From: Auricularia sp. M13
Taxonomy: Eukaryota; Basidiomycota; Agaricomycetes; Auriculariales; Auriculariaceae
Direction: 5' to 3'
Length of the DNA: 64,000 nucleotides
NCBI GenBank assembly: GCA_037042915.1
Contig: CM073200.1
Coordinates: 3,282,832 to 3,346,831 of the forward strand
Made by a program: the position numbers and the translations under genes. Positions 28,253-52,874 of this stretch are shown one piece after another. Position 1 is the first letter of the stretch, and the number at the start of each line of letters is the position of its first letter. The notes under the pieces are model-generated. The model was not told the DNA's origin. It saw only the letters and a list, made by a program, of their open reading frames with translations, and ran no database searches.

Positions 28253-28495
28253 GGAAGCTCCTCCCAACTCCGGATTCCTGACTCCCAACTCCCAACTTTC
28301 CATTTCCTCTCCCCATCTGTATATACATTTTCTACCCTACACTATCTACTTATCCAGCTCCCAACTCCCAGCTCCCAACTCCGGACTCCGGACTCCCACC
28401 TTCGCCGCTCGCATCCCGAGCGCAAGTCCAACTCCAACTCCAAACTCTGCTCCCAACTCCCAGCTCCCAACTCCGGACTCCCACCTCCCGCCGCC
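28253..28495. repeat. left terminal inverted repeat and subterminal repeats
   Basis: An 18-bp terminal motif is followed by many short degenerate copies of AACTCCCAACTCC and ACTCCGGACTCC to about 28,495. Similar repeats occur on the opposite strand at 52,650-52,874. Subterminal repeat clusters of this sort are often transposase-binding sites, which is inference here. Confidence 0.65.
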
Positions 28496-29236
28496 AGACA
28501 CAACAGTGACCTTCTCGATGAAGCACTGCAGTGCAACCACGTGCATCGTGTAGCGTAATTTAGGAAGAGCGCGAGCGCAAGGACTTTGGTGGTGTCGGAC
28601 GCGTTTCCTATCTGAACTCCAAGAAATGATGATGTACTCATTAACAGCGCAGAGGACGGAAATCGTGCATGGCGACGGCGGAGAGGCGTGGCAGGTCGAT
28701 TCTGGCGACGGCGAACGGAGTGCGCAGGTCGGTAGCGACGAGCAGTGCAGTACAGCGTACGGGGCGCCGCTGTACACCTCTGGCGAGAATTCCTGCGGAG
28801 CTTGCAAGGGCAGGGCGTACGCGTGGGCTAGCATGTGCTCGCCCGAGGTGCAGCACGCGGAGGTCGCTAGCGAGCACGGACACAACGGATGTCAATGTTG
28901 TGCGGTCACACTGCAGGCGCGGGATGAGACACACCATTCCAGCTTCGGGTCGTCTACAGTCTAGTCTTGGCCGCCGCAGTTTCGCTGGTGGGTTTGGCCC
29001 TGGCTGGGAAATGGCGGGAGGTCACTGTGTTGGCGATCGTCTGCAATTTGCTTCTCTTCGTTGCGCACCGGCTTCGAATGTAATAGATGATGTCTGTCAA
29101 GCGCTCAATAAGAGAGTACTTATAACAGACTGGAAAGAGCGCGTACAATGTTGGATAGAATACTTTTTCTGTTAAGATTACCCTCACGGGGATCAACACC
29201 TAGAGCGCCTTGTCAGTCACAAGACAGCGTGAAGCA
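28496..29236. other. region inside the left end of the composite element
   Basis: About 740 bp lies between the left repeats and the transposase stop. Open frames on both strands (for example 28,669-29,175 plus and 28,641-28,937 minus) lack motifs and compete with each other, so none is called. Confidence 0.4.
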
Positions 29237-32224
29237 TCACCGAAACCATACGAACTTATGTGCATTCTGTGACTTGGACGAGTTCCGGTACTGGGATAGA
29301 GCAGACCTGCCGGTCTTGGCTGCTGCAGCTGGCGCGAGGTCCTGCTCTTGCTGGCGGAGACGATGCCTGTTCCAGATCGCGAGGAACGAATGCGCCAACT
29401 CGATCGCGTGGCGCTGCGACATGTAGCTCATGACCTTTCGTATTCTAGCGATTCCCGCATTGCCGCACTCGCCTGCGCTGGAGTTGACGCGAGCGAGAAG
29501 CTGTCGCCATGGTTCATAGCCGTTGATCAAGCAGGCTGGCGAGCATCGTGTGTGATCTTGGCCGTGGAACTTGTCGATGATGAAGAGCGTGTCGCCGAAA
29601 TAGACCGGCTCTCTCGTCATGCAATACGGGGCAGGGCGCATGCGAAATCGTAGACCACGATTTTGGGCGCCTTGCGCCAGTAGCAAAATAGAGCGGAGAA
29701 AACGTCGTTCCGTCCTTCGCCCGCCGGGATAACGTGAAAGCCAAGGCAGACACTATGCCTGCACCACGCTACCATGAGCCCGCCCGTGAGGCCCTTCTTG
29801 CCGTACTCCTGGTAAAACTTGTTGCAGCCGACGTTCACTCCCTCGTCGGTGACGACTCCGCGCTCCTGCTTGCCGTCTTTCTCCATGTGCGGGTATGCGG
29901 GGCGATTACAAACGCGATGCTTGCCGTAAAAGCAGCCAGTCTGTGCGCGGACGTGATAAGCACAAGAAACACATGGAGGTAGCGAGTCCGACTTACCTCG
30001 CGCCAGTCTTCTTCGTTCGATTCGTTCAGCAGCGCGTCGTCCGGGTTATGCTCGGACAGCTGGGACCGGACGGTCGTCGCTCGATCCAGGACGAAGGCAG
30101 CGAGGCCTCGCAGCTCCTGGCTGATGCACCCGCGTATACGAAGTTTGAGTTGCGCCACGAGTGCGAACGCCGGGACAATCGGGAGCAGCGGTTCGACCGC
30201 GTTCTTGTCGCCCTCAGTCGCGATCTGCTCCAGGTGCGGCCATGCAGCCGCGGGCGCGGGTGGAGTACGGACTCGTACGCCAAGACCTGCTAGCAGTTCC
30301 AAGACGAGCCGTCCGTCGTCCTTGCCAAAGGGATGCTGTCCCGACACGACATGAACAGCGAAAATGAGGGCGAGGTCTTTGTTGACTTTGCAGAGCCGCT
30401 CGAACAACACATTCGTGTCAGGCAGCTGTCCTCCCCGACCCTTGCCTGCGGTGGCTCGTCGACCAGAATCCTTGGAGTTCTTGGCCGGGATTGCGAGATC
30501 GTCGTCCTTGCCGTCCACGTCTGCGTCGCTACCCTTTTTCCTGCCCTTCTCGTCGCGGCCGAGGAGGCGACGAACCGCGTCTTGGGCTTGTTTCCGAAGC
30601 TCTCGATCTTCGACGACGGAGGTAGGGCGCGAAGGCGGCCGCACATTGGGCCGCGTTGGCGCGTTATCCGACACCATGGTGGGCGGACGCAAGGTCGACG
30701 TAAGGGAGCCCTTGGCAAAGCCGGCGGTCACGCCGTCGAAGATGATGACCTCGGGTTCATCACCACAGAGCGAGCACTTGAAGCTATCTGGCATGTGCTG
30801 CTGACGGCAGAACGCATAGTAGGCGGTTCGAAAGGTGGTGTCGCCGACGAAGTTGTAAGGCGAGTGCTTCTCGTACACATGGCGAACGGTTTTGCAGTAG
30901 GCGGTCAGCGGGGTCTCGGACATGCTCATGCGGCTCTGAAACGACTCGAACAGCTCGTGGGAGTAGATGCTCTCGTTATTCATATTGAACAGGCCGTATT
31001 CGCGGAGATCTGGGCCGCACTTGAGACGGCAAGAGCTGCATGCCCGGACTTCGATGCGACAGGGCGTTGCTCTCTTTCGCCGTACACAATACATGAGACC
31101 GTTTCCACGGTCGAGCTGCTTCTCGGCTCGCCACCGCAGCGACAGCGAGGATGTTCGCCCAAGGTGAATGATTCGGGTAATTTCACCCCGACGGGCGACG
31201 AGTCGACCTTATCCGTCTTGAGCCGGGCCCACACTGGTGGCCCAAATGGTAGATGCGAGACGCTGCGCTCGTCTTGCAAGTCTTTCCGACTCTGGGCTTC
31301 GACTTTGGCGTTGCGTCAGTATCTGAACATCTGCGTTTAGGGCGACTGAGAACTGACCTCGTTCTTGGTCTCGTTGCGCCTTTTCTGCACGGGCGGCCAG
31401 AGCCTCGGCGCGGCCGTCCGCATCGTTATCCGAATCCGCTCTCTCGCCAAAGAAGATCCGCAGAGCCTTCGAGTCCTTCACGGCTTTGATGTGCGCGCAC
31501 TCGCTGGATCTTGTGTGCTGCGCGCACGCCCAAGTTCCGTTCGAGACGAACGCCCGTAATGCGAGACGATTTCGGGAGAGTGCCCGTGTGCATGGGCCAG
31601 GAACAGATGGGTTGCCGGGACGGCGTCGGTCGCCTCCCTGCGATGGAACAGAACGGCGGGAAAGTTATCTACGAGAGCGTTAATCTGTGAACACGCCGTC
31701 CAGCGCTAAGGCCCACCTTGGATCGTGATGGGCTGGAGTTTAGGAGGGTCCTTGGAGCTGAGGACCATCGCGTGAACGCAAGCTGAGGACTTCTTATAAT
31801 CTGGGCAGCTGCAGTGATAGGAAATGCGCTCCTCCTCGTCCAGCTCTCGTCGGATAACGGCCCAGGGGATCAAGCCGCCCACAGGCGTCAGGTTCTCACT
31901 GTCGAGATCACATAGCTCGGCGACCCAGGTTTTCGAATCGATTTGATGGAACGCAAGGTGCTTGCCCAGTGCAACGCGGTAGCGCGCATACACGGTGTCT
32001 GGCGCGACGTCGGATGGCCGTAGCTTCTTTCGTTTTGGAGCACAAGGCAGGACGTTCGTAATCTGCCGTTTCCGCTTTGGCTTGGGCTCTGGGCCAAAGA
32101 TGACGGGGGTGGGGGCTTCAGACGAGGGCTGTGGGAGCTCATGGAGATCCTTGCGCGAGAGAGTTTTCTTGCCCTTCCCACGGCACCTTGGCAATGGCTT
32201 GGGGAGCGGGGAGTAGACCGACAT
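29237..32224 (-). CDS. KDZ-family transposase
   Basis: This is a multi-exon minus-strand gene of roughly 900 residues. Its N-terminal exon (32,224 to about 31,715) contains a SWIM zinc finger, YHCSCPDYKKSSACVHAMVL, with Cys138, Cys140, Cys149 and His151. A second Cys/His cluster (CAQHTRSSECAHI) follows near 31,500. The large exon carries FKCSLCGDEPEVIIFDGVT, where the Asp near 30,736 should be the first catalytic residue. VVYDFACALP near 29,650 holds the second, followed by YCMTREPVYF, IIDKFHGQDH and the C-terminal YMSQRHAIELAHSFLAIWNR. These match the Kyakuja-Dileera-Zisupton RNase H-fold transposases. The reading frame changes by one base at about 29,628-29,632, inside the conserved core, so the enzyme may be inactive or the base miscalled. 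Confidence 0.82.
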
Positions 32225-33123
32225 AGTGGCACGGAATCCCTATAGACAAAGCCGGTTTCCATGCTTCAGTATATATGGCTCGACAATTCGAGTTGCAAAG
32301 CCGACTGACCTCCACTAAGGTATGTAAGGTTCTGTGCCAGCCAGCCAGGTCGCAGATAGAGAGTCTCACCGAGCCCCTCAAATCAGAAGGACGAGGAGAG
32401 GGCGCGCAGACGCCTAGTTTATGCTCAGGTCAATACCTGCGTCCTCTCAAAATCGCACCAGACTGACCTGCCTCGACACGAAATCTGATGGGGTATGTCC
32501 CAGCGGACGTCTGGACGAGCGTCTGGGGATAGAAGTGCGAGTAGACGGCGGTGAAATATTCAATTTGACAGTCCAGTCAGTACTTGCGTCCTGGCGACTC
32601 GCATGAACACGACCCACCGCGGGAAAGATCCAGTATATATTCGAAGTTGGTCGGGTTCGTCCCAGAGCAGCAGTCGCGGCCGAGAAAAATAGTGAGAGAG
32701 CGTGGGCGCAGTGTAGCAAGTCGATATGGGTAGCAATAAATGACCACATCGCACTACACAGGGACACCCTCGGATTCGAGGGCGCGTGCTGTGGTCGTGC
32801 TCTCGCTCGCTTGCACCTTACTCACGAGAGTCGTGAGTACGGGCAGCGGGGCGAGGTGGGCTGGGTGTCGGCGCTGGGCGGGTGGCTTGGGGCGAGGAGA
32901 CAAAGTCCGTTTGGACTCCGCCGGCCGGACGCATCGCACCTTGGCTGACCGTGCGCTCGCCCACAATTCTGTGGGCGACCTGCAGCCCTGGCATGGTGCG
33001 ATCTCGGCCGCACCACAGACTGTGCAATATGGCAAAAGGTTTACGAATCCGTAAATCTGCGCCAGCGCCGTATGCGTCGGCCGGGCAATTGCATATGGGC
33101 GCGTCCTCGCGTACCTGGAGATC
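32225..33123. other. divergent promoter interval in the composite element
   Basis: About 900 bp separates the transposase start (minus) from the next plus-strand coding frame. It holds two TATATATA-like stretches (about 32,270 and 32,635) that suit divergent promoters. A weak open frame from 32,740 could be 5' sequence of the next gene. Nothing else is recognisable. Confidence 0.4.
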
Positions 33124-34158: not shown

Positions 34159-34398
34159 ATATAATATCTTTGTTTCCCTGCACGCGCCCTCGTCCGATCC
34201 GTTTTATACATTGCTCGCTCCAGAAAGGTCAGCCTCGAGTCCAACGGCCGTGTCGAAGCAGTCAAACTGATTGACATTAAGGCGTGTGATGTTCTCAGAG
34301 ACAGGTTGCAGTCGTGCTCGTCGCGAAGACGTGAGCAGCGAATCTATGCTGCATTTCCCGCCGTTATTGACTAAATACATCTCCAGCAGTCGGTCAGC

Positions 34399-35765
34399 TC
34401 ACAACCCGGCCATCTTCGCCCTGTACTCCTCCACTATCTTCTCCGCCGCCGCCGCCTGCTCCTGCGCTTGTTGAGCCATCTTGCGAGTCGCCTCCAACTC
34501 GGCCTGCAGGGCCCTCGTCTGCTCCTGGGACTTGGTCTGGTCGTGCTGTAGGCGAGAGATGATCGTGTCAACCTCGCGTGCCCTCTTGGTTCGAAGCTCG
34601 CCCAACTCCTCGAGGAACAGGTCGCGCATTTTCTGAGGAAGGTCCGGCTTCTCGTTCTCGATACTGTCCGAGTGCCAGGTCCACAGCGCCTCGTGGCCGT
34701 TCTTCTGCGCAAACGCGATAAACGCCCATGACGGGCACCAATCGACGAGCTTCTCCATCTGCGCGTTGGACTGGTCAGCCTCAATGGGAATCGTGCAAGA
34801 CCGAACCGAACTTACCGCCGCGAATGAAGCTGACAGCTGGGGCTTCACGTTGTGCGACGCGTCGCCGCGGCCTCCATTCCGGGCTGCATTCTTTATCCAC
34901 TCCTCGCAGACTCTGGCCGCACGGTTCTTGTACTTCGAGGTGAAGCCGCCTGTGATCTTACCGCCTGCCCCATTGCCCTTCCACCCGTGATCGACTGGTA
35001 ACTTGCCCGTCGAGATTGTGTCGAGATCGACGAGTCCCTTCTTCTTGAGCCGGTCGACCTCGGCGGTCATCTCGATCTCGCACCTTGCTTCGTCTCCGCC
35101 ATGCGCGATGTACACGCGGTGAAGCCGATGCGCGAGTTCGTTCATAGAGAGCAGCTTGGGTGGCGTTGGTGGCACGGGCTGCTCGAACGACTTCGGCGGC
35201 GCGGGCGGCGCTGGCGGTGCGGGCTGCTCGAACGACTTAGGTGGTGAGAGGGACAGCGAGAGTGACTCGCGCGGCGCGGGCGACGGCGACCTGGTCTTGT
35301 TCGACGCGGATGACGTGGGCGCATCGGGTTGGGGGGGGTCGTCCACATCCATGTCGTCGAGTTCCTCGCTGGGAGACTTGCGCGACTCGGGCGAGCTGTC
35401 GGCGTCCATATCGTCATTGTTCTGCCGGCGGCGAGCGAGGGCCTTCGCCTTGGACGTGATTTTGGCTTTAAGCTGCTGCTTCTTGGCCACGACGACTTCG
35501 TCGTCGTTCCGTTTGGTCTGGGTCGTCAATGAGCCTCATCTAATCCAGCGGAAGATAGTCGATGCACTGGGCAGCCGTTGGAGCCGTGGCGGGCGACAGG
35601 ATGTCCTTTGGCCACGGTGCATCTCTTGCAGATGCTCTTGATCGCTTCCTCGACGCGCTGCTGCTTTCCCCGCGTTGCGCCACTGCGAGTCTTGCCAGGA
35701 GTTGGGTTGTCGACAGCGCGTGCGCGCGTCTTCGGCGGGGTGTTGCGTGTTTGGCCGCGAACCAT
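34399..35765 (-). CDS. cargo coiled-coil protein, function unknown
   Basis: The ATG at 35,765 (MVRGQTRNTPPKTRARA) opens a basic N-terminus with a small Cys/His cluster (SICKRCTVAKGHP, GSNGCP). A 50-bp intron (GTGCATCG...GACCCAG) joins it in frame to TKRNDDEVVVAKKQQLKAK. A Pro/Ser-rich linker with repeated PPKSFEQP follows, then a conserved-looking middle (LAHRLHRVYIAHGGDEARC, VDWCPSWAFIAFAQKNGHEALW). The last 90 residues are a long Glu/Gln-rich coiled coil ending EEYRAKMAGL. A second 45-bp intron (GTAAGTTCGG...GACCAG) lies at about 34,770. The basic start and coiled coil suggest a DNA-associated structural partner, but no function can be assigned. Confidence 0.65.
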
Positions 35766-36149
35766 TGTGCTGGAGGTGGAACGAGTCTAAGGGGGAGTTT
35801 GGAGTTGGGACCTTTCAACAAATATCATCGTGCCAACCACATTCGGTCGTGACGGTCAGCACAGTCGTCAGGGGTATATTCCGAATGTTTTCGCCGGGAC
35901 TCGAGCCACCGACGCTCAAGTTATCGTCGGGCTCCACCGACCATGATTCCCACGGCCGGTGGAGTTCTAAGCGAGATCCTGGTCGTCATAGAAGTCAAGA
36001 CATTCATCCCGCCTCTTGGGGCTCGTGTTTCCGATAGCTTTGGCTGAAGATTCCCGGCAAGCTGCTCGAGTAGAAAAGTCCAGCCATCGGATGACCATGG
36101 GCTCCCATCTCCCAACTCCCAACGTCACTCACAACTCCCGACGTCAAGC
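35766..36149. promoter_or_regulatory. internal divergent promoter with element-type repeats
   Basis: The two flanking cargo genes start at 35,765 (minus) and 36,150 (plus). Close to each start lies a copy of the short motif that marks the outer ends of the composite element: GGAGTTTGGAGTTGGGA at about 35,795-35,811 and CTCCCAACTCCCAAC at about 36,110. A shared regulator or transposase binding is a reasonable inference. Confidence 0.5.
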
Positions 36150-36662
36150 ATGTCGTCTCCCGCTGTCTCCTCGCCCCGCTCGTACCGCCCGCTTTGTTCT
36201 GCTCTCAAGCAATACGTTTCGATCGTCGTCGGCACCTGCCCAGCCCCGAGTCGCGTGCATTGCACGGACCCCGCGTGCCCCGCCCAGAGGCTTGACCACC
36301 CCCACACCTTCGTCAAAAAAGGCGTGAACGAGCCCAAAAAATGGTTCATCGTGAGTTATTCGTGTTCATTCCTTTTTTTTCTGTTGGCGGCGCAAGCTGA
36401 ACGGCTTCTAGTGTTGGATTTGTGGTCGTCCATGCGCCTCGTACAACACCGAGAGCGAAGAATTTCATTCGTGGGTCAGCAAGAAGAAGCTGAGGGACGA
36501 GCTGAAGGAGGCGGGGGAGAACATGCCGCGGACTGTGCCGTCGCCCTCGGGCGCAGGCTCTGGATCTGGCTCCAGTCAGCGAAGCGGCGGGCCGCCATAC
36601 ACCCAGCGTTTCCCGGCAGCGTCCTCCTCCAGCGCTGGGGGGTCTTCTCGCAGGACCTCGGC

Positions 36663-39035
36663 CACCCCAGGCAATCTGTTTGTGACCCCTCAGGCCTCTA
36701 AGCGAGACCACTGATGGCTGACCCAAGGGGTCACACCAAACAATGTCCCTTTGCACAGCCACCCCTAGCGGTCACCTCCAGCAGCACTGGCCAATGCATT
36801 ACTGCGCTGAAAGCGATCTGGCGTGTTCCCAGCGTGTTCAGATGGTCCACTGGTATTGCCCCATCACAAATATCTTCTAGAAACAGCTCCATGGGTGCCT
36901 CTGAGCATGCTGCTCACTGGCAGCTGCAGCAGCAAATGCAGCTGCAGCAGCAGCGATGCTGCTCGTCGTTCTGGTTGCGCGCAGCAGTCTAGAATGTAAT
37001 TTAGCGATGTAATACACTATTCCTTGCAGAGAGCGGCTGCCACATTGAGCTACACATGGAGTGAATTGTTTTCGCGGTCGCCGCGAAAATCAGCACAGCC
37101 ACAGTGTCGCATCACAGCCAGCAGCATTGAATGCAGCACAGCGGTAATGCGAGCAGCCTAGGGCACTAGTTGTGCATTAAGGAGGCCTACATGTGTTATC
37201 CCATCTCTATAGTGCAAGGAAAAGTGTCTACTGAGCTGTCCCTTACAGGCTGTTGGCTGTTGGTAGCAGCAGCAATGGCGCAGTAGCACCAGCAGCGGCA
37301 GAGGGTGTTCTGGTCGCGCACCATGTTGGAAAACACAATTCTCCATTGCTAGACACTATTCCACATCAGGTGGACATGCTATACTATGCAGTATGTCGAT
37401 GGCATTGATTTAGCGGCGACCGCGAAATCTGCACAGCCACATCTCGCGGTCACCGCCAGCAGCGGCAAGCACTGCGTTGCAGCACTGCAAATGGTCTGGC
37501 ACACCTGTAGCAAGCTTGGGGTGTCTCCCGCCATGATACAAGCTCATCGCATTGTACATAACAGTGTTCTTAGCACTGATGGATAGGACTGCTCGCTGTC
37601 GACGGCAGCAGCGACAGTGCAGCAGCACTGGCAAACCTCAAATGGTGTACTGATCGCGCGCTAGGCTCAGGAACACATCTTCTCATTGCTAGACAGTATC
37701 CCTTGCGATTCCAAAGTGCTGTGCTGTACTGTACGTCAATGATGTCGATTTCGCGGTCGCCGCGAAACCTGCACAGCCACAGGTTCGCGGTCACCGCCAG
37801 CAGCAGTGAGCACTATGTAGCCGCACTGCAAGCGATCTGGCGCATTGGCAGCAGGCTTGGGGTGTCTTCTAGTATTGTAAAAACTAAAAAGCTAATAGAA
37901 AGCAGTGTTCTCAACATTGTTAGACAGGCTGCTCACTGCCTGCAGCAGTGGCAAGGGTGCAGTGACAGTAGCAACGCTCGCTGTTGTTCCGACTGTGCAG
38001 TATGCTTGGGAATGCAATTCTGCACCGCCAGACACTGTCTTGAGCAAGGGAGAGTGTCCTGGGCGAGCTAAACACCAAGAGTGTCGATTTATCGGTCGCC
38101 GCGAAAACTGCACAGCCACATTCCCGCAGTTGCCTGCAGCAGCATGAACACCTCGTTGGAGCATCGGGAATGTTGCAATGCATGGCCAGTAGGTTTTTAC
38201 AGTCTAAAAAGGACATCCCCTGCGAAAGAATTGAGTTGAATGACCTTCTGGATGTCCCTGAGTGTGGTGCTCACTGTCTGCCAACAGTAGCACCACTTCT
38301 GGCAGCAGCGACGAGTGCAGACACTGCAATAACACTCTATTGTAATCATCTGTGACCCTTGAAACCTTCCCCTGCACAAAGGGCTCCTAGGGCAAGTCCC
38401 TGAGCATGTTGCAGGCTCAAGGGCCAGTTTATCGGCCGCCGCGAGATTCTGCACAGCCACTGATCTCCATCGATCAATCCGGACTTAAGGCCGCTTTTGC
38501 CCTAACCTAAGTGCATTTTGGGCATGGGAATTTCGAGGAAATAAGACTGGATTATGATGCATTACATTAGGACAGTCTCAATGGTGCAATTCCAGGTGCC
38601 TGGAGTGCCTGGAAGGTGTGCAGTGAGCCAAATATACCTCCAGAATGCGAGCATAATAGCACCTCGGTCCTGGCTCTAATTCATTGGGTGTGATAGTAAA
38701 ATCCACTTGGTTTTATGTCTAGATCATACTCCTAAAAGCCCTTACAAATGTATTCAGAACTGGGAGCTGGGTGCAAGTGCACATTTCCTGATGGGGCAAG
38801 CATTTGCACCCAGCTCTGGAAACATCTCCAATGCGCGTGGGACTTTGTAATTACGTTTTATGAGTATATTTAGGCATATTCCGACCATGTGCCTGGTGAG
38901 GTATGACGATGGAAGCATCCCAGAAGCGAAGCAACTGGAGCTCAGGGTAGCATAAACTCCCATGAATTCCCCACTATCCCTCGCATTCTAGCTCGGAATT
39001 TCAATGCAGACCACCTCAGGGGTACTCTGTGCATG
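36663..39035 (+). repeat. left foldback arm, tandem units of about 340 bp
   Basis: The landmark GCACAGCCAC recurs near 36,756, 37,093, 37,430, 37,770, 38,110 and 38,451, a spacing of about 340 bp. All but the outermost are preceded by a palindrome-like motif, clearest as TTTCGCGGTCGCCGCGAAA near 37,070 and 37,748. Between landmarks the units share GCAGCACTG, TCTGGCGC and GCTTGGGGTGTC blocks with considerable drift. The innermost 570 bp are a separate unique sequence. Several short open frames here are without motifs and are not genes. Confidence 0.85.
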
Positions 39036-39181
39036 TATACCAGTCAAAATCACGCCGGAAAACTCCGAACTGGAAGGTCAAGTAGGTTGTCTCTGCAATC
39101 TTAGTGAACATTCAGCAAACATGAGTGAACATGTATCTTTTGGTGGAATCAAGTTTAATCCACCATAAAACTGTTGGAAAT

Positions 39182-41553
39182 CATGCATAGAGTACCACTG
39201 AGGTGGTCTGCATTGAAATTCCGAGCTGGAATGCGAGGGATAGTGGGGAATTCATGGGAGTTTATGCTACCCTGAGCTCCAGTTGCTTCGCTTCTGGCAT
39301 GCTTCCATTGTTATATCCCACCAGGCACATGCACGGAATATGCTTCAATACACTCATAAAATGTAATCCCAAAGTCCCACGCGCATTGGAGATGTTTCCA
39401 GAGCTGGGTGCAAATGCTTGCCCCATCAGGAAATATACACTTGCACCCAGCTCCCAGTTCTTAATGCATTTGTAACGGCTTTCAGGAGTACGATCTAGAC
39501 GTAAAACCAAGTGGTTTGCACTATCACACCCAATGGATTGGACCAAGGACTGAGGTGCTATTGTGCTCGCATTCTGGAGGTATATTTGGCTCACTGCACA
39601 CCTTCCAGGCACTCCAGGCACCTGGAATTGGGCCATTGAGTCTGTCCTAATGTAATGAATCATAATACAGTCTTATTTCCTCGAAATTCCCATGCCCCAA
39701 ATGCACTTAGGTTAGGGCAAAAGCGGCCTTAAGTCCGGATTGATCGATGGAGATCAGTGGCTGTGCAGAATCTCGCGGCGGCCGATAAACTGGCCCTTGA
39801 GCCTGCAACATGCTCAGAGACTTGCCCCAGGAGCCCTTTGTGCAGGGGAAGGTTTCAAGGGTCACAAATGATTACAATAGAGTGTTATTGCAGTGTCTGC
39901 GCTCGTCGCTGCTGCCAGAAGTGGTGCTACTGTTGGCAGACAGTGAGCACCACACTCAGGGACATCCAGAAGGTCATTCAACTCAATTCTTTCGCAGGGG
40001 ATGTCCTTTTTAGACTGTAAAAACCTACTGGCCATGCATTGCAACATTCCCGATGCTCCAACGAGGTGTTCATGCTGCTGCAGGCAACTGCGGGAATGTG
40101 GCTGTGCAGTTTTCGCGGCGACCGATAAATCGACACTCTTGGTGTTTAGCTCGCCCAGGACACTCTCCCTTGCTCAAGACAGTGTCTGGCGGTGCAGAAT
40201 TGCATTCCCAAGCATACTGCACAGTCGGAACAACAGCGAGCGTTGCTACTGTCACTGCACCCTTGCCACTGCTGCAGGCAGTGAGCAGCCTGTCTAACAA
40301 TGTTGAGAACACTGCTTTCTATTAGCTTTTTAGTTTTTACAATACTAGAAGACACCCCAAGCCTGCTGCCAATGCGCCAGATCGCTTGCAGTGCCACTAC
40401 ATAGTGCTCACTGCTGCTGGCAGTGACCGCAAACTGTGGCTGTGCAGGTTTCGCGGCGACCGCTAAATCGATGTCATTGGCGTACAGCACATTCCAACAC
40501 CTTGGAATAGCAAGGGATAATGTCTGGCAATGGGGAAATGTGTGTCCGAGCCTGGCGCATGATCAGTACACCATTTGAGGTTTGCCAGTGCTGCTGCACC
40601 GTTGCCGCTGCCGTCGACAGCGAGCAGTCCTATCCATCAGTGCTAAGAACACTGTTATGTACAATGCGATGAGCTTGTATCATGGCGGGAGACACCCCAA
40701 GCTTGCTACAGGTGTGCCAGACCATTTGCAGTGCTGCAACGCAGTGCTTGCCGCTGCTGGCGGTGACCGCGAGATGTGGCTGTGCAGATTTCGCGGTCGC
40801 CGCTAAATCAATGCCATCGACATACTGCATAGTATAGCATGTCCCCCTGATGTGGAATAGTGTCTAGCAATGGAGAATTGTGTTTTCCAACATGGTGCGC
40901 GACCAGAACACCCTCTGCCGCTGCTGGTGCTACTGCGCCATTGCTGCTGCTACCAACAGCCAACAGCCTGTAAGGGACAGCTCAGTAGACACTTTTCCTT
41001 GCACTATAGAGATGGGATAACACATGTAGGCCTCCTTAATGCACAACTAGTGCCCTAGGCTGCTCGCATTACCGCTGTGCTGCATTCAATGCTGCTGGCT
41101 GTGATGCGACACTGTGGCTGTGCTGATTTTCGCGGCGACCGCGAAAACAATTCACTCCATGTGTAGCTCAATGTGGCAGCCGCTCTCTGCAAGGAATAGT
41201 GTATTACATCGCTAAATTACATTCTAGACTGCTGCGCGCAACCAGAACGACGAGCAGCATCGCTGCTGCTGCAGCTGCATTTGCTGCTGCAGCTGCCAGT
41301 GAGCAGCATGCTCAGAGGCACCCATGGAGCTGTTTCTAGAAGATATTTGTGATGGGGCAATACCAGTGGACCATCTGAACACGCTGGGAACACGCCAGAT
41401 CGCTTTCAGCGCAGTAATGCATTGGCCAGTGCTGCTGGAGGTGACCGAGAGGGGTGGCTGTGCAAAGGGACATTGTTTGGTGTGACCCCTTGGGTCAGCC
41501 ATCAGTGGTCTCGCTTAGAGGCCTGAGGGGTCACAAACAGATTGCCTGGGGTG
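39182..41553 (-). repeat. right foldback arm
   Basis: This is the reverse complement of the left arm: paired positions add up to about 78,216. Identity is a mosaic, near-perfect over some outer stretches and about 93% by eye over inner stretches such as 39,450-39,620 against 38,600-38,770. The spacer between the arms (39,036-39,181) is AT-rich and has no coding capacity. Confidence 0.85.
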
Positions 41554-41729
41554 ACCTCGGCACGCGTGACCCGTGGCAATGCCAGTGAGCAAAACAACGA
41601 CGATGACGATGACGACGACGGTGGTGACGACGACGTTGGTCACTCCGCGAGCAGCCCCACGGCGAGGCTCGCCAGGCGCACCCCGCGGGAGCTTCTCCTC
41701 GAGGGCCTGGTACGTGGTTCGACTTAGGG

Positions 41730-42213
41730 AGAACCTGACACTGCCCCCTGGTTCCAGGAGGATTCCAGGTGGAATTCCGGTGGAAAACCTGCTCCAGACA
41801 AAATATTTTCTAAGGGGTGAAAAATTATGTTAGACATCACAAATAAGGTTCAGAGATGCACAGCCGCCTCAGGAAACATGAAAACGTTCTAGTAACCTAA
41901 CCTAACCTAACCTAACCTAACCCCTAACCTAACCTAACCTAACCTAACTCCTAACCTAACCTAACCTAACCTAACCTAACCTAACACTTAATCACAGTTT
42001 TTGATGAATTTCCACATTGTTTCCAGTGGAATTCCACCGGAATTCGGCCATTCTGGCCCATCCGATCCAACGGTCCAGTGGAATTCCACCCAAATTCCAC
42101 CTGAGGGGTATACCATCAAAATATGATGGATTTGACATTCTAACACTTTTTTTGCATAGTTGCATTTTTCCACCTGGAATCCACCTGGAATTGGGGGGCA
42201 CAGTCACTTACAG
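41730..42213. mobile_element. MITE-like element inside a cargo-gene intron
   Basis: This 484-bp element is flanked by GACTTAGGG on both sides (41,721-41,729 and 42,214-42,222), an 8-9 bp duplication. Its ends are imperfect inverted repeats sharing TGCCCCC and TTCCAGGTGGATTCCAGGTGG-like blocks. It holds no coding frame. Removing it leaves a normal 49-bp intron, so the insertion lengthened the intron to 542 bp. Confidence 0.75.
41896..41985 (+). repeat. (CCTAA)n pentamer array
   Basis: About 17 copies of CCTAA (TTAGG on the other strand) run here with two small interruptions, inside the MITE. It resembles the insect-type telomere repeat, but fungi normally use TTAGGG, so it is treated as an internal satellite of the MITE, not a telomere. 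Confidence 0.85.
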
Positions 42214-42704
42214 GACTTAGGGCGATCCCATCTCTGCTGACACGCGCTTAGGACGGCACCATCACGCCGTTTATGATCATGACCACGGCGGTCATGGATT
42301 ACGACGACGTGCCCCGTATCATTCATCTCCTCCTGCAACTCTCGGCGTCGGTCCCAGGTCGTCAGTTACAACTCGAAGTCTTCGACCACGGCGTGAACGA
42401 CTGGATCGTATTCGACAGGCGTGCCTGGTACTACATCGAAACGCGGCTCCAAGTTCGTGGTCGACTTACCAATGCCCCGCAACCAGCGGAGGCGCCTGTT
42501 CCCGCTGCCAATACGCGGAAGCGCCGCGGCCCAACAACTGGAGGAGGAGAGAGCAAAAAGCAAAAGCAGGCTTAGAACATGAAATTAGATACACATCGTC
42601 CATACCCAATCCAAAATGTGTTCCGAGCGCCGTCATACATGCACTATCTAGTCGTGATCATTTCCCGAAGTCCTTGTAAGTTGGGTGTGAAGGAGAAATC
42701 TATT

Positions 42705-44412
42705 CTACTCGACTGACTGAGTCGAAGACACCCAGACCGCAGACAAAGGAAGAGGGCCGATAGCTACGTCTTCAAGCACGTCGCGGTGCATAAAATGCGC
42801 GACCGCGACCCTCTGGCCGTCTTTGTGCGTCACGGCGTGGGGCAGAATGCCGCCTCGTAGGAACACCAGTGTTCCCGGCCGATATTCGATTTCCAGGTCC
42901 AGCACACGCATCACGCCCGACTTGTAGCAACCAACGGTTGCGACTGGCGTCCAGGCCATTTTCATATCCTTGGTGTCCGTGTGCAACGGCGTTTCGCGGT
43001 TATAGATCAGCGAACGACCGTGAAAGAAAGTGGGGTCGATGGCACTGAGCGCCGCATATGCGGGAAATTTCTCCCCAAGGCGCTGCTTTGCGGCGGTAAA
43101 CACAGCGTACTGCGGGGGGTCCACCAGCTGGAACAGATGGTCGAGCCGTTTGCTCATGACCCGAAGTTGCTTCAGCAAGCGCATGGTCGCGTTGAAAGTC
43201 TTTATTTTGTTGAGAATGTCGCGCGACGGTCCCGCGGGGCCACTCTGGATGAGGATTTAGCGTTGTTAGACAGAACTGAAGCAGCTACGCACATGGCGGC
43301 CCACCGCGCGCCATACGGTGACGAGCTGAAAGACCCCGTGTACCTCGCTCTTGACATGGCGTCTGGTATAACTTCTCGCGGTGTCGCGAGCGTTTTTATC
43401 CGCGGCTTTCTTGATGTTCACCTCGACCTCGCGCCCGAAATCGATGAGGAGCTTGTAGAATATTTTCTGACGCGGCGGTAAGCTTGGCAACCAAATTCTG
43501 TGCCCTTCTCACCCTCGCGTTGCCTCGCAGCCATCTCGGAAAGACGATGACGGCAGGGACGCCTTTCTCGTCGACCGCCATCCTTGGTTGTTGACCCTTC
43601 CATTTCGTCTTGGGCATTTTATCGAAGTTTGGCAGGGGCCGGACGATTCGCTTCTGATCTGCGGAGAGGTGCGATTTGAAGTCAAGACCCTTCACCACGT
43701 CTGAGAGGGTGAGAAACGTCGCGAGACTGCAGGAACGAGGTGCGTACGAATGTTCCGCTTTGCGTTTTCCCATGACCTTGTGTTGATTCTGTACCACTTG
43801 CGCCAGAATTCCTGCGTTGGGCTAGGAATCGCACGGTCAGCGCGCGAGAGCAACGTGAGAATCGCTCACTTTCGCTTTCGCTTGCGCGACTTCTTCCGTT
43901 GCGGACCTTTGCTGTCGATTTCTGCTTGGCCGACACGAGTGTTGGCGGGACAGGATGCAGGACGAGGTTCCTGTTCTTTAGATGCGCGGCTTGTGATAGA
44001 ATTAGTGATATGTATGCACAAGCTAACGATGGAGCATACGTGCGCAGAGGTGTAGGCCCGGGCTCGTCGATCTCAAACGGCACCGGGACTTCACCCTCAT
44101 CGTCTGACCACTCGGACACATCGCTATCTTTGCCGACGTCGTCGTTGTCGTCGTCACCGTCGATGGCAGACATCGTCTCCTCTGTGCCATCGGCAGAGAG
44201 ACCGAACATTTCCCGCACAATTTCGTTCGTGAGCGCTTCTCCTCTGACAGCCTCCAGGACCTGTTCGAAGCTAACTGCCATAGCGGATTCTTCGTCGTAG
44301 GCAGCTATGACTCTGTGAGAACGATTTTCGCGCACGACGAGAACCGTGACCCACCAATATCGAGATCTGCGGTCAACTGCGACAGTTCCTCAAGCTCCAT
44401 TGGCATCGACAT
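42705..44412 (-). CDS. TET/JBP-family 2-oxoglutarate/Fe(II) dioxygenase
   Basis: TET/JBP enzymes oxidise 5-methylcytosine (or thymine) in DNA using Fe(II) and 2-oxoglutarate, and act in the nucleus. The ATG at 44,412 reads MSMPMELEELSQLTADLDI, then a 44-bp intron, then MAVSFEQVLEAVRGEALTN, an acidic stretch and a basic region (QPRMAVDEKGVPAVIVFPRW). The catalytic part ends the gene: FFHGRSLIYNRETPLHTD gives the iron-binding His and Asp, EYRPGTLVFLRGGILPHAV the second iron His, and QRVAVAHF the Arg that binds 2-oxoglutarate. The order H-x-D...H...R is complete. About five introns join the parts. Basidiomycetes carry expanded families of such genes, often beside KDZ transposons, as here. It looks intact. 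Confidence 0.82.
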
Positions 44413-45466: not shown

Positions 45467-45884
45467 ATGGAGATATCCGTGAGGTGGCTGCGCGCCCCTG
45501 CTTTTGTCGACTCGGTATGTCGATGATTCAAGTGCGAGCAAACGATATCCTGACTTGCGTGTTGTCTAGCTGCTCGCGAGCCCCTCTCCCGCCGAAACCG
45601 ATTCGGTGTATCGCCTTTATAGGCAGTATTGTGAGGACATTATTCGGAACGATCTCCAACTGTGGGCGCGCATCGTCGCCGCGCAGCTGCCCGCGACGGC
45701 GCGGCTCCTCGACTCCGTCGGTCGTCGATGGCCTGTACTCCCGGAGAACGCGCGGCGCTACGCGGAGCAACTCCTCCGCCAGGTCCAGCTGGACTATACC
45801 TTCAATCTCCCCCTCGTCGTCGACGCGGAGGACTACGAGGTCGTCGAGCGCGCGGATGGAGGGGCCGAGCAGGAGCCTAAGTAG
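45467..45884 (+). CDS. small cargo protein of 120 residues, function unknown
   Basis: Exon 1 (45,467-45,514) reads MEISVRWLRAPAFVDS. A 55-bp intron GTATGT...TTGTCTAG with a CTGAC branch site leads in phase 0 to exon 2 (45,570-45,884), which reads LLASPSPAETDSVYRLYRQ and ends ERADGGAEQEPK. The product is probably all-helical and acidic at its end, with no zinc site or membrane helix. Clean splice signals and an in-frame join support a real gene. I recognise no family. It lies between the TET/JBP gene and the large unknown cargo block. Confidence 0.65.
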
Positions 45885-46374: not shown

Positions 46375-47434
46375 ATGGACATCGACGACGGCGATCGCAT
46401 GGACTCGAGTGGTCCCCGTAGGGAACCGTGAGTATCTGATGGTAGCACCTTGCACTCATATTCATAAAACATCGTCTAGGACGGAACTCGATGGCCGGGG
46501 TCTGCCACAGGATGGCGACGGTGGACTTGGGAGCTGGAGTGGAGCACGGCAACGTGCCCCGCAGTATGTATATTCTTCGCACCGACAGATCGTAGCACTG
46601 ATCTGTCGCGGTGCGCAGGGACCCCAGCGGTCGAAATCTTGGCTCTTCGAGCTTGAACGCGCCCGTGCGAGCCGAAAACAGGCTGCCGCCACTGAGGTGT
46701 GTAACTCGGCCGTTTCGTCGTCCAAAGGCCGTTTTAACTTGCAACGTAGTACCATCACGCAGCCCCTGGCAGAGGCATCTCGATGAAACGCCTGCATGGC
46801 GGGCGAGTTGGGCGGGCTCTTCCCACAAGGGTTCCTTTCGGGGATGCAGTACTGGTGTGCATGGCCAAACGTCACCAGGCCTCGATATCTCGTCCGCTGC
46901 AATCGCAGCGTCGTCCCCGAAATTCCGGGCGAGGGTCTTCAAACGCGTTGCATCGACGGCCGCCATGGTCTTAACGAGGGCGCCCACCTTCCTCAGTTCT
47001 ACGACGCCAACCAGACTCACACCCCTTACACGCCCCTCCTCACCGCACCATGGAATCTCGTGCCGTTTCACACCGACCGACCGTGGTACAATCTCGAGCA
47101 GGAGGACCCGTCTGGCGACTTGGGCTGGTTCCAGTTGAAGCGCATCTACGTGAGACCGGTTGGGGCCAATATCTACATGCTCAACAGCGAAGTTCGTCAC
47201 GGAGTCCGCGTAAACGTCGACCAGGAGCTGCAAGCATGGGCTGACATGCCGTTGGACTATGAGGACTGGAAGAATCGTGAAATCAAGAAGTCCCTGTCCA
47301 ATGTAGCACGTACCCCCGGGCAAATCATGAACTCGCTTCTCGCTCTGACCGATATCTTACTCAATCACTGTTTGGGCGACTGGGAACTGACTCAAGCCTT
47401 CGCCGACTGGCAGGGCTGTCTGAACGAGCTTTGA
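46375..47434 (+). CDS. unknown cargo coding block, part A
   Basis: The best-supported segment is 46,796-47,434, a 212-residue frame reading GLFPQGFLSGMQYWCAWPN, PWNLVPFHTDRPWYNLEQED and LGWFQLKRIYVRPVGANIYM. It is rich in Trp, Tyr and Pro and looks like a folded globular protein. An upstream start at 46,375 (MDIDDGDRMDSSGPRREP) with a normal intron (GTGAGTATC...CGTCTAG) may be the true N-terminus, but I could not join it to the main frame. The stop at 47,432 is only three bases before the next open block, so parts A, B and C may be one long multi-exon gene. No known family was recognised. Confidence 0.5.
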
Positions 47435-47437
47435 GGC

Positions 47438-48490
47438 ATGAGAGCAGAAGCTAAGCTAGGAAGGACCAGCATCAGGACCAGCGGTTACGGCGCACTCTTT
47501 CCGCGGACAGGACTCGGTGAAAGCGTCTACTATAGCGAGCTTCAGGAGCTGGAAGGTCGTCTGCACGTCCGAACTCACGAACGGCATGCTCTCAACTGCC
47601 GAGGAGTCTTTACCCGCGACGTGGCTGTCGCAAATGGCTATGCTAGCGTCGATGTCGCCACCTGGTACATCGAGCCATTCGACCCGACGGTGTTCGAGAA
47701 CCTGCGAAACCTCCAGCGGCAGGGCGTGCTCAAGCGGGCAACATACTTCAAATACGGTACCGAGCGCTGTGGGTACATGCGCGCCGTCGAGAAGCGCTTC
47801 CACGAAGTCCCGCTGCCCGCGTTCGATGCTCTGGCTTTTGCCCAATCGGGTCGGCCTACGCCAAGTCCGTCCTGGAGGGTGGTGGCGGGACCAGCCAAGT
47901 ACCATCGAACGCCGAACAACAGATTGCGCCGTTGGACGATGGTGCCATGTCTCCCCCTCCCCCGTCACAGTCTCGCCGCTGCTGTCGCACGCGCCGCTGC
48001 CGTCTGTTTCGCAACCCCATCCGGCGACCATTGCTGCGACGCAACGGGATCCTCGGCTCCGTTTGCCCGCTAAACCGGTGACCTCGCAAGACGCTGCAAC
48101 ACCGGTGCCCGCGCCAGCAGATGCAGCTCCGAACGCCTTGGACCTCGTCGACATGAATGTGGTCGTTGACGAGCCCGTGGCGTCGACAAGCACGTCTCGC
48201 ACGGCGGTCGGCGAGGCTGTTGCGACTGCAAGCACCACGCCCATGGCGGTCGACGAGCCTGTGGCATCGTCGAGTACCAGCACGTCGCACATGGCGGTCG
48301 ATGAGCCCGTGGCATCGGCGAGCACGTCGCGCACGCCAATCGGCAGGCCAGGTGCGGTTGCCAGTAGTGACAATGGCGGAAGGAAGAGGAAAGGTAAGCT
48401 TCATATGCAGCTATGCGCTCACGTCCTGAACTTGATGATCAGACCGCAATTACAGCCAAGCAGCTTCAGACCGGAAGCGCCGCAAGAAAG
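47438..48490 (+). CDS. unknown cargo coding block, part B with repeat linker
   Basis: From ATG 47,438 the frame reads through GYGALFPRTGLGESVYYSEL, VFTRDVAVANGYASVDVATW and ATYFKYGTERCGYMRAVEKR to about 47,880. After a probable intron another frame (about 47,975-48,390) reads PVTSQDAATPVPAPADAAP and then four imperfect copies of a VDEPVASxST unit, a disordered linker, ending in basic GGRKRKGK. An intron with a GTAAGC donor at about 48,393 follows. The first part looks globular and conserved in style with part A. It may belong to the same gene as parts A and C. No function can be assigned. Confidence 0.45.
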
Positions 48491-48539
48491 ACAAGGGCGA
48501 GAGTAAGCTTGCGCTCTCATCTTCGCCAAAGCAGCGATA

Positions 48540-50835
48540 CTGATATTGGTCGATGACCCAGAAGCCAACGACGATGCTCCGGGACAGGAACCTCGACATC
48601 GGAGAGTCGCCCAGCACCTGATGCGAGACAAGGGCATCGTGGTCAAGACGAAAAATGTCGAGCTGGGCGATGTCGTGGTTACCCGGTTCCACACCACTGA
48701 ACGTCCGCCATGGTTCCCAGACACGTTCAGACGCGCGGAGAATATCGTGGGCCGTGTGGATCTGACTCGCGAACGCCAGTTGCGTCTCACCCAAGCGATG
48801 GAATACCCGGTGCCCAAGGCGATTCTCGAGCAAGGCCGGCAGCACAAGATGCCGCTCATTTCGTACTTCGTGAACTCGTGGTACCAAGCCAGGCAGAGTC
48901 GGGATTCGGATAATCCTGAGGAGGCAGCAAAACCCAGACAATCAGTAACGCGTGCGATGATCGTCTGGTTGACGTTGCGCAACTACTACCTTTGTCGGCT
49001 TGCTGTTTCCGCCGTGTCCGACGTGCCTGGGCTAACTGGCCCGGAATGGCGCAACGTCTTGAAGCTCTGTGTACCCAGAAAAGATTTGAGGAGGACGATC
49101 GACTACATCGGACTCGATGTAGTTATGGAACAGCCGGCGCCGCGCATCATCTCGCCGCCCGAGGAAAACGACGAAGAGCCATTGGATGAAGTCACAGGTG
49201 ACTCCCACACCGCCACTCGATTGTCTGCAGCACAACCCGATACTCCGTCCTCCTCATCGGTACCGGCATCGTCTTCTCGCCGGTCGCCGCCACCGCCGCC
49301 GTCATCGTCCCAAGCTGCCCCGTCCGATGCTGCGTCGTCCCGAGCATCGCACCCACAGCCAGCCGCACCGCCGGTGTCGCAGACGTCGTATGCTGTTCCG
49401 GCACCACCTCCGTCAACTCGCTCGACATCTCATTCATCGCGTTCACACGCAACACTGCCCACGCATCCATCGTCGTCGTCCAGGGCATCAAGCTCGTCCC
49501 GTACCGCGACACCGCCGGTTGAACCGCAAACGCTGCCCATCCGTCGCGCTCGACAAGCCTTCCAGGGCTCGGATGACGACTTCACAGACTCGGATGATGA
49601 AGACGCGCCCGAGGCCCGCCGATTCCAAAACCCACCACAGTGTCCGAAATTCAGGACCCATTGGTGCGGAATATGTTCGACGTCGCTAGCGAAGGCGAGG
49701 CTCCTGCCCGTTCATCGAACCAGCGAGCAAGTGCGGAGCCGAGGGACTGGTATTTCAAGCCCGGGTCAAATAACCCACGGGCCAAAAAAGAATGGAGTTA
49801 CTTCTATTGGGACAATGAGGCCTTTATCGCCACCACGCCGAAAGGCCGGACTTGGGACGAGACAGAGGGACTTGCTGAATGGTGGGATTATGAGCACAGG
49901 AGAATCCTCTTCCTCCCGGTGACGACATCGGGGCTTGATGGCGAGCATTTCCTGAAGACTAACCTGCCATACACGGATATTCAAGGCAAGGCGGTCTTTA
50001 ATGCGCGCAATGGCAGACCCTCGCGTCGTATCTGGCGGGAGGATTATGAAGGGTATGTCTGCACGCCGTGTTTTCTGCCAGCGGCTTACGGTGTATCTAC
50101 AGCGTGTATGAACGGGCCGGCGTTGCTCGGCCGCTGCAAAAGAAGAGCACTTCCAAGGTTGTTGTGCTGCCTGGTGCTGCAGCGATGCCTCCTCCACCAC
50201 CCCCTCGCCCGCCGACGCCGCCTGCACGCTGCCTGCAAGGTCCGTTTGGCAGCATGCGCGAGTACATCACCGTACTCGGCCCGCCCATGTTCCAAGACAT
50301 CGAGCTACCATGCGTCCCAAGCTTGGACGATGTCGACGATGCTGAGGATAAGATCGTCTGGCCATCAGTTCCCTGGCGCCGCTATGTTCTCTGGGAGCTG
50401 GCTGAGCTCGAGTTCCGGCATGAACTGTTGTGGCTGGATCTCGCCATCCGACAGTCGCATCCCGACCACGAGCCACTGCAGTCTCCCGAGGCTTCAGAAC
50501 GTAACCGGCAGTGTCAAGCCTGCTGGGGTGGCGCGGACTTTACCCCTGCAGCAGACGAGGACGGCAACTGGCTCTGCAGTGATGACCCGGTGCGCAGACT
50601 ACGGGCGTTACACACGTTTGCGTCCTTCATGAAGGCTTGGCCGCGCGCCGCGACGTATCTGAAACCATGGAATGCTCACAAGGACCGCCAGAGTTTCGTC
50701 GCGAGCATGGACGTGTCGTCTTCGCACTTCTATGAGCTCGAGAGTAGCGTCTGGCATTGCTACGCACAGACCTTCTATGACTACCGTCACAAATTGCTGA
50801 CTTTCCCCTATCTCAAGCCGAAACTGCCATTCTGA
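48540..50835 (+). CDS. unknown cargo coding block, part C
   Basis: A frame from about 48,546 reads VDDPEANDDAPGQEPRHRRV, PPWFPDTFRRAENIVGRVDL and LKLCVPRKDLRRTIDYIGLD, then a long Ser/Pro-rich disordered stretch (about 49,200-49,560). A second frame from about 49,640 reads KKEWSYFYWDNEAFIATTPK and EWWDYEHRRILFLPVTTSG. The last frame, from about 50,080 to the stop at 50,833, holds a poly-Pro run, RYVLWELAELEFRHELLWLD, a Cys pair (RQCQACWGG) and ends YLKPKLPF. The Trp/Tyr-rich WSYFYWDNEAF block repeats the style of part A. This is probably the 3' end of a very large cargo gene whose biochemical role is unknown. Confidence 0.5.
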
Positions 50836-52317
50836 TTTACATAGTATGTATATGGATATCGTCTGGATGTGTTACTTGTATAATATAGATGTAGCTCAGC
50901 ATATAATTCAACACGTTTTCGCAGCATCCGTCGACGCCGTGCGACATCGCGTGAATCAATCCACGGTTTATTTTCCATCATCAAAGTGAGTACTATCGAC
51001 AGAAATTGCAAAGGTTCTAATATGCATCATTTTGTAGGAATCATGCAATGGCGACGGTGTCCACGGCCTGCTCGACTGCCCTGGCCAGGCATCGTCCCGG
51101 GCATGGTGCTCGGTGGTGGCGTGGCAGGACGGCGGACTTGAGTCCTCCTTCCAAGCATCGGCGCGTGTTTTCTTTTGACCCTACACAAACGAGCACTCAC
51201 GCGCCGCAGCCAGGCTGTCACCAAAAATGCTCAACCCGCAGCGGAATATACACGGTACGTGTTTTTATTATTGTTCTGGCATTGTCTTTGGGTAGCCCTC
51301 TCGTGGCACCGCGAGCGCGACCGCTGTAGATGGCGTGTACTCGTCATGTTCGCGCTCGAGCACGCCGCGCTCTTATTTCCCTTCACCACCACCGAGTCGG
51401 CGCCACGGGCGCGACTATGCCGCTGGACACGTTCATTGCTTCGGAGTTGAGAAGTGTCGGCGCTGAGAGCACGACAGAGCTGGCGCCGGTCAGTACTCGC
51501 CCTTCTCGCGCCGAGGCTTTTGCCCGGGCGCTGCTTCTTCTTTTTACCCACACGCGCACGGCGCCAGCGCGATGAGCACGACTCCGTGCTCGTCACCGGC
51601 GCCGGCACCGTTTCCCAGACGTCCTACAGCGAGCCAGCGCCGGCGTCGCGAGACTCCGGTGTTGGCCTGTTTGTCCCGACCGCGTGCTCCCCGTCTCCCA
51701 CCCCACACGCTGCTCGCCCCCGCCCAGCCCGCATACACACCCATGAATACCTCAGAGCAAATCCCGGTGCTTCCTGCACCAAATTACACACAAAGTACGT
51801 CTTTATGCGTTGATTATGTTATTCGACCGCAACACCGTCGGCCTGGCCTGCTTCTCCCACCCCCACACGGCGCCGCGCGGCGAGCACGACTCCGTGCTCG
51901 ACGTCACCGGCGCCGTTGCGCTCTTTGTTTTCTGCGCTCGGGCACTTGCCCCAGCGCGTCCTCTGCCCGCCTCTCATCGCGCTCGGGCAAGTGCCCCAGC
52001 TCGTCCTCGTCCTTCCACCCCCGCCTTTCTTCCACCCCGCCTTTCTTCGCGCTCGGGCAAGTGCCCGGGCGCGTGCTCGTCTTGACCCGCCGCCGCCGCT
52101 GACTGCAAGCTCTTTCTCGCGCTGCTGACGCCGCCGACACTTTCTCGCGCTCGGGCTTCTGCAACGGCGTCGGCGCTGCGAGCACGCTTCCGTGATCTGC
52201 CTGCTTGTTGTGGCCCCGGGCTTTTGCCCGAGTCTGTCCCATTCTCCCACCGTCCTATTGTTCGCCTTGCTACCTAGCATTTCTGACTATCGGGCTTCAG
52301 ATTGCCTTGCCGATCGG
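50836..52317. other. GC-rich hairpin-repeat region
   Basis: The first 200 bp are AT-rich 3' sequence. From about 51,340 to 52,230 the DNA is GC-rich and carries repeated short palindromes: GGGCACTTGCCC or its complement at about 51,940, 51,985 and 52,060, a relative GGGCTTTTGCCC near 52,218, and GAGCACGACTCCGTGCTC twice (about 51,573 and 51,880). Long open frames here on both strands arise from GC skew and are not called as genes. Confidence 0.5.
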
Positions 52318-52586
52318 ATGGATGTGTTCTATGCCTACCTCTCCACCTTGCCGCTCCCAGGTGAGTCCTTGGTCATTTGCCCTTGTCATTCTGTCTCTGA
52401 CTTTGCCTCATTTCAGCCATAAGTTTTGAGGAGCATTTTGCTCGTTTCCAAGCCGATTTTGCGTCCCCAGAACCTGTGCATGCGGTCAAGGTCCATCGTC
52501 CGCTGTGGAAGTTGGACAAGGCCACCGCGCTTCTCAAGGCTAAAAATGTTGCTTACAAGGAGCTTCTAGCTGGCCAAAAAGTCTGA
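52318..52586 (+). CDS. small cargo protein of 70 residues, function unknown
   Basis: Exon 1 (52,318-52,360) reads MDVFYAYLSTLPLP. A 56-bp intron GTGAGTCC...CATTTCAG joins in phase 1 to exon 2, which reads ISFEEHFARFQADFASPEPV and ends AKNVAYKELLAGQKV with TGA at 52,584. The protein is helical with a basic C-terminal half. The intron signals are excellent and the frame is preserved, so it is probably real in spite of its size. It is the last gene before the right terminal repeat. Confidence 0.6.
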
Positions 52587-52874
52587 TGGAATTTTACTTT
52601 TTCTGAACCTTCATGTAACCCATGAGGAACACTATTTTCAATTAGATTGGAAGTCGGGAGTTGGGAGTCCGGAGTCCGGAGTCCTAATCTCAAATTTCCC
52701 AATGTGGCCGTTAATAAAGAACCAGGGGAGTCCGGGGTTGGGAGTTGGGAGTCTGGAGTTGATATATCTACTATACAAAATATTTCAGTCTTCATAAAGA
52801 CATAATAAATAAGATTATAATATCATTAATAAATAAGACAAGGAGAGAGGAGTTGGGAGTCGGGAGGAGCTTCC
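52587..52874. repeat. right terminal inverted repeat and subterminal repeats
   Basis: GGGAGTTGGGAGTCCGGAGTC-type copies lie at about 52,650-52,685, 52,726-52,760 and 52,849-52,866, with an AT-rich spacer between. The edge ends GGAGTCGGGAGGAGCTTCC at 52,874, the inverted partner of the left end at 28,253. The next eight bases do not repeat those at the left edge. Confidence 0.65.

Follow-up and report, generated by a model that had tools for sequence, protein, structure and literature searches.

Does a 24.6-kb interval in the genome of Auricularia sp. M13 (Basidiomycota; Auriculariaceae) represent a single mobile element, and if so, of what kind and how much of it is still intact? The window analysed here comprises 64,000 nt of contig CM073200.1 (assembly GCA_037042915.1, positions 3,282,832 to 3,346,831 of the forward strand), and all coordinates below are numbered from its first base. 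Our preferred reading, of moderate confidence, takes positions 28253–52874 (24,622 bp, no strand assigned) as a single copy of a large DNA transposon of the KDZ type, among whose genes are one for a TET/JBP dioxygenase and several element-specific accessory ones. The interval fits a KDZ-type TET/JBP element because inverted ends, inward-pointing subterminal repeats, a CxC4 transposase and the TET gene all lie within one bracket. An earlier note on this DNA had proposed a 24.6-kb KDZ transposon; the bracket and its ends are retained, but about 5.4 kb of this length belongs to later nested insertions and about 19.2 kb remains for the element itself.

Inverted ends and subterminal repeats

The left end (GGAAGCTCCTCCCAACTCC, 28253–28271, + strand) and the right end (GGAAGCTCCTCCCGACTCC, 52856–52874, − strand) both read GGAAGCTCCTCCC(A/G)ACTCC and form an imperfect 19-bp inverted repeat with 18 of 19 positions identical. 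An inverted pair at the edges is thus present as first described, but it had been given as matching over 18 bp and is corrected here in length and exactness. The core GGAAGCTCC has two occurrences in the 64 kb, both at these ends. The exact inverted match between two 100-bp end stretches was 13 bp, a length reached by none of 500 dinucleotide shuffles, and that between 600-bp end stretches was at longest 21 bp, with one of 500 shuffles getting to 13 bp, the shuffled stretches having been picked around ends that were already reported. The inverted ends are beyond chance.

Two exact 11-mer words, CTCCCAACTCC and CTCCGGACTCC, were found 15 times in the window, with nine copies at the left end, five at the right end and one in an internal divergent promoter. 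The left array (28258–28500, +) has 17 of its 18 near-matches on the + strand and the right array (52646–52870, −) has 10 of its 12 on the − strand, so that both point inward. Each array adjoins only the inner side of its end, in a 7-bp register. When up to two mismatches were allowed, 74 matches were obtained in the window (18 left, 12 right, 6 in the promoter, 20 elsewhere inside the interval and 18 outside it), counted over left, right and promoter regions delimited after the repeats had been seen. The proposal that the repeats are confined to the edges and one promoter therefore holds for the strong matches (15/15 exact words) and fails for the weaker ones, 38 of 74 near-matches lying elsewhere.

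Terminal arrays of this kind in DNA transposons are likely transposase-binding sites, and by analogy the arrays are predicted to serve this role here. The transposase would bind the CTCCCAA/CTCCGGA arrays adjoining the short inverted ends and would then move the unit by cut-and-paste. Ahead of the right end, at 51506–52169, a GC-rich 25-mer of the TCGCGCTCGGGCAAGTGCCCGGGCG type, palindromic in part, occurs five times.

Transposase

The transposase gene was placed at 29240–32224 (−). It matches CxC4 (PF18717), a domain described as associated with KDZ transposases, with E values of 5.2e-24 in the six-frame scan and 3.1e-25 in pieces, and its start shows a weak SWIM-like finger that stays below the cut-off (E 0.04). 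Positions 8–43 of the CxC4 profile were matched in one frame (weakly: E 0.023, with 15 bits where the cut-off is 26.9) and positions 41 or 42 to 130 in another. As these two parts lie in different frames on touching DNA that leaves no space for an intron, the gene has a break of frame near 31.07 kb. Another may lie near 29.63 kb, judged from motifs on both sides that were picked by eye and look like those of the catalytic RNase H-fold of KDZ transposases.

No break in the transposase was called by a coding-statistics model with provision for frame shifts; applied to a host-side control (1–21900), the same model called two shifts under a laxer penalty and one under a stricter penalty. Since shifts were also called in the control, assembly errors are possible, and decay and assembly error are indistinguishable as causes of the transposase break.

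TET/JBP dioxygenase

The TET/JBP gene (42705–44412, −) was modelled as 478 amino acids in six exons without a frame break. Its last exon matches Pfam Tet_JBP (PF12851, E 2.5e-11), and no relatives of solved structure other than CcTet of Coprinopsis cinerea (7vpn and 7w5p, 1.3e-10) and 8jkk (2.1e-10) were found at E ≤ 0.001. In the alignment to CcTet the metal and cosubstrate residues are kept, namely the HxD motif, the distal His and the Arg, as expected for a 2OG-Fe enzyme of the HxD kind; the stacking Phe, counted as CcTet Phe391, is also kept, and Arg205 falls outside the aligned part. The TET/JBP gene that the earlier note had described as complete is thus confirmed by its Tet_JBP domain.

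The substrate pocket departs from that of CcTet. Within a part of the alignment that has no gaps, CcTet Gly331 is replaced by Asp and Asp337 by Thr. In conventional Tets, the residue at the 331 position, Asn or Asp (TET2 Asn1387, NgTet1 Asp234, CMD1 Asp350), is described as holding 5-methylcytosine (5mC) and blocking N6-methyladenine (6mA), and that at the 337 position, Thr or Ser (Thr1393, Ser238, Thr354), as holding 5mC (PMC11040006). CcTet, with Gly and Asp, takes both 5mC and 6mA, and the exchange of Asp337 for Thr alone abolishes its 5mC oxidation (PMC11040006). The present TET pairs Thr at 337 with an Asp at 331, the combination reported for CMD1 (Asp350, Thr354). As this pair is that of CMD1 and falls within the residues of conventional Tets, the two aligned residues predict a 5mC-selective pocket. 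The match predicts the base selected and not the product, since the enzyme that shares the pair, CMD1, converts 5mC to a glyceryl adduct (PMC12730594).

In the proposed mechanism, the TET would oxidize 5mC of the element, and the resulting demethylation would let the element's genes escape silencing. The function of transposon TET genes is described as not experimentally validated (PMC12730594). If the preferred reading holds, the element bears on why transposons retain a TET gene: its ends are defined, its end motif recurs in a promoter, and in its TET both substrate-selecting residues are unlike those of CcTet, so that the choice of transposon TETs between 5mC and 6mA would become a two-residue test.

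Accessory genes and nested insertions

Gene A (34399–35765, −) was modelled as 419 amino acids in three exons; searches of protein families and of the PDB gave no relative within their limits. It is separated from the divergent gene B (36150–42575, +) by a promoter region at 35766–36149, which lies between the A start codon at 35765 (−) and the B start codon at 36150 (+). This region contains six near-matches to the end repeats, as compared with a mean of 0.37 and a maximum of 4 in shuffled sequence, none of 1000 shuffles reaching six. All six are in the coding orientation of the gene that follows them, 12–48 bp ahead of its modelled ATG. The stretches tested ahead of the TET and transposase starts had no such near-match. 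The sharing of repeats suggests that the transposase or an accessory protein may control genes A and B.

Gene B is split by two nested insertions. The larger is a foldback element (36663–41553, 4891 bp, no strand assigned) with arms 96.7% alike (2303 of 2381 aligned columns identical), a 132-bp centre and an 8-bp duplication ACCTCGGC, or 9 bp with the end shifted by one base. It is a nearly perfect palindrome whose long arms consist of repeats about 340 bp apart with small TTTCGCGG–CCGCGAAA palindromes; its ends read CACCCCAGGC, and no protein family match was found inside it. The smaller insertion (41730–42213, 484 bp, no strand assigned) resembles a miniature inverted-repeat transposable element (MITE); it has a 9-bp duplication GACTTAGGG, which contains CTTAGGG, and an internal telomere-like TAACC array. 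Joining the flanks of both insertions gave one four-exon gene B of about 285 amino acids, and no such reading was obtained with the MITE-like element left in. As gene B is continuous once both sites are emptied, the two insertions arrived later. Subtraction of 4899 and 493 bp, that is, the insertions with their duplications, from 24,622 bp leaves about 19,230 bp.

The further gene models are C (45467–45884, +; 120 amino acids, weak), D/E (46796–50835, +; one or two decayed orphan genes with several frame changes) and F (52318–52586, +; the weak end of a possible orphan gene, covered by the six-frame scans only). Models A to E were searched against protein families and none scored above the curated cut-off, and Rfam gave no matches at gathering scores. 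Predicted structures for part of gene A and for the C-terminal exon of D/E had mean pLDDT values of 52.7 and 36.7, respectively, too low to use. Iyer and colleagues are said to have noted in an abstract of 2014 that KDZ/TET elements often bear extra genes, including one for a divergent HMG protein, and we infer that A, B, C, D/E and F are element-specific accessory genes. At least five unrecognized genes, as originally counted, are plausible, but the count is soft: all of these entries are gene models, with B interrupted and D/E changing frame.

The frames of TET and gene A appear intact, unlike those of the transposase and gene B. With a break in the transposase frame and insertions in gene B, the present copy is probably non-autonomous and no longer self-mobile.

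Target-site duplication

The one unsolved problem of the element is that no duplication of the target was found at its ends, where the earlier note had listed one of 7–9 bp, shared by several copies, as support. A search of symmetric offsets from −40 to +14 (55 offsets) found no repeat of at least 5 bp with at most one mismatch, and a 42 × 44 offset grid found no exact repeat of at least 6 bp. A wider scan of 128,000 offset pairs yielded 16 exact 7-mers, against about 8 expected as an estimate under uniform composition, and none of them pairs both ends. The exact 8-mer CGCGCGCA was considered as a duplication and rejected, as it is of low complexity and lies away from the cores. There was likewise no CA..TG pair with a 7-bp duplication for starts at 27481–29250 and ends at 52590–53599, and no Zisupton-type 8-bp duplication at the ends, though inverted repeats are present there. 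As the inverted repeats have hardly diverged, the missing duplication makes a simple insertion bounded by just these two ends less likely.

Alternative explanations

Several further observations weigh against a single KDZ-type insertion. The KDZ norm of a 7–8 bp target-site duplication (TSD), or 4–8 bp in Cryptococcus, is not matched here, and the ends do not fit the rule for TET-bearing Kyakuja elements (CA..TG, 7-bp TSD, no terminal inverted repeat). One copy only was seen, within the 64-kb window, and a search of viral_contigs with part of the transposase and with the TET, which detects close relatives only, found no relatives. The KDZ transposase of the earlier note is supported by its CxC4 domain, but it has at least one frame break, and the Pfam KDZ catalytic domain was unmatched in the six frames of the interval and in pieces. 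Finally, the orientation of the repeats along the interval (+, −, +, −) also fits two adjoining elements.

The absence of a duplication bears most directly on whether 28253 and 52874 are the two ends of one insertion. The locus could be a KDZ element with true termini elsewhere, or a chimera formed by recombination between two copies or by one-sided deletion; published KDZ insertions have duplications of 7–8 bp (Kojima, PMC12730594) or 4–8 bp (PMC12810828), and neither the symmetric nor the grid search found one at or near the ends. We regard this as unlikely, as the inverted core is found only at these two places and the arrays only on their inner side. The repeat orientation raises the different case of two related elements side by side, one at about 28.25–35.81 kb with the transposase and gene A and one at 36.10–52.87 kb with gene B, TET and D/E, each with + repeats to the left and − repeats to the right. 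In that case the transposase would be missing from the unit that holds the TET gene. However, the core GGAAGCTCC is absent at 35.8 and 36.1 kb, and the position of the internal repeats 12–48 bp before the modelled A and B start codons is that expected of promoter elements, which makes such a pair distinctly improbable.

The size of the interval and its several genes besides the transposase would also suit a Starship-like vehicle for host cargo genes, the comparison drawn in the earlier note. Six-frame Pfam scans of the interval, however, gave no family at the curated cut-off other than CxC4 and Tet_JBP, with no tyrosine recombinase family listed at E ≤ 0.1, and Starships are described as tyrosine-recombinase elements of Pezizomycotina (PMC12134995). 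With no host-type cargo or tyrosine recombinase recognized, with accessory genes a known feature of KDZ/TET elements, and with the transposase and one accessory gene broken, the Starship comparison is unsupported and this origin highly improbable. The combination of KDZ and TET/JBP proposed earlier fits the locus, but the cargo-carrying unit that went with it has found no support.

A single KDZ-type insertion thus remains our preferred reading. A bolder extension of it, which we consider rather doubtful, is that the locus represents a separate KDZ lineage of nearly 20 kb. In such a lineage one motif would act both as terminal transposase-binding array and as promoter switch of two accessory genes, coupling mobility with expression, and the TET would have been retuned from a CcTet-like pocket for 5mC and 6mA to a 5mC-selective, TET2/CMD1-like pocket for the element's own de-silencing. 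The element family may already be in Repbase, as the supplement of PMC12730594 lists its elements, and a search of the openly licensed PMC literature found nothing on KDZ subterminal repeats or on a KDZ cargo element.

Flanking sequence

A hAT-like transposase fragment lies just beyond the right end (53473–54612, −), with weak similarity (Hermes, E 0.07) and no Pfam match. Insertion of the element into this hAT-like gene was considered and rejected, as no Pfam match for the lost C-terminal part was found in 27480–28302. To the left, positions 21997–27475 hold a Copia-type long terminal repeat retrotransposon with an uninterrupted open reading frame of 1649 amino acids and with 201-nt end repeats of a reported 100% identity (exact run 93 nt); the identical repeats and uninterrupted frame suggest that it is probably recent. 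The gag/aspartyl-protease reading frame of a Gypsy-like element is at 57194–58717 (−), and several arrays of a TGCGCACGGA-type minisatellite with a period of about 20–21 bp are at 59403–60788. Similar host-type gene models, presumably alpha/beta-hydrolase-like and tannase-like, form two tandem pairs at 554–2887 and 16972–20543; one of the pairs has a modelled frame shift at 17.7 kb.

Comparison with known systems

TET genes are reported from 11 transposon lineages, with AG-type ones in Kyakuja and Zisupton (Kojima 2025, PMC12730594), and TET genes inside KDZ transposons have been published for Agaricomycetes (PMC12730594). The present element is accordingly a large, divergent variant, with unusual ends, of a known kind of transposon. 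Like the TET-bearing Kyakuja and Zisupton of Agaricomycetes, it combines a KDZ-type transposase with a TET/JBP protein of the HxD kind related to CcTet (PMC12730594). Kyakuja elements are described as having CA..TG termini, a 7-bp duplication and no inverted repeats, and their TETs as having a conserved Asp337 with Gly or Ser at 331 (PMC12730594), whereas the present element has 19-bp inverted ends that do not start with CA, subterminal arrays, no duplication found, Thr at 337 and Asp at 331. For the TETs of Zisupton, the text of that paper names no residues at these positions.

With KDZ1–3 of Cryptococcus the element shares a KDZ transposase with a cysteine cluster and inverted ends (PMC12810828). 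Those elements are given as 9.2–11 kb long with inverted repeats of 139–241 bp, CxC1 and duplications of 4–8 bp (PMC12810828); the present one is larger (about 19.2 kb) and has much shorter 19-bp ends, CxC4, a TET gene and no duplication found. The likeness to Starships is that of a large fungal element with several genes (PMC12134995), and the present element differs from them in its inverted-repeat ends and in that no tyrosine recombinase or cargo was recognized here. The nearest solved relative of its TET, CcTet (PMC11040006; 7vpn, 7w5p), shares the HxD motif, distal His, Arg and stacking Phe, and the changes from it, Gly331 to Asp and Asp337 to Thr, are the pair reported for CMD1 (PMC11040006). 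Two oddities set the element apart in a testable way, namely a promoter that shares the end repeats and a TET pocket with Asp and Thr.

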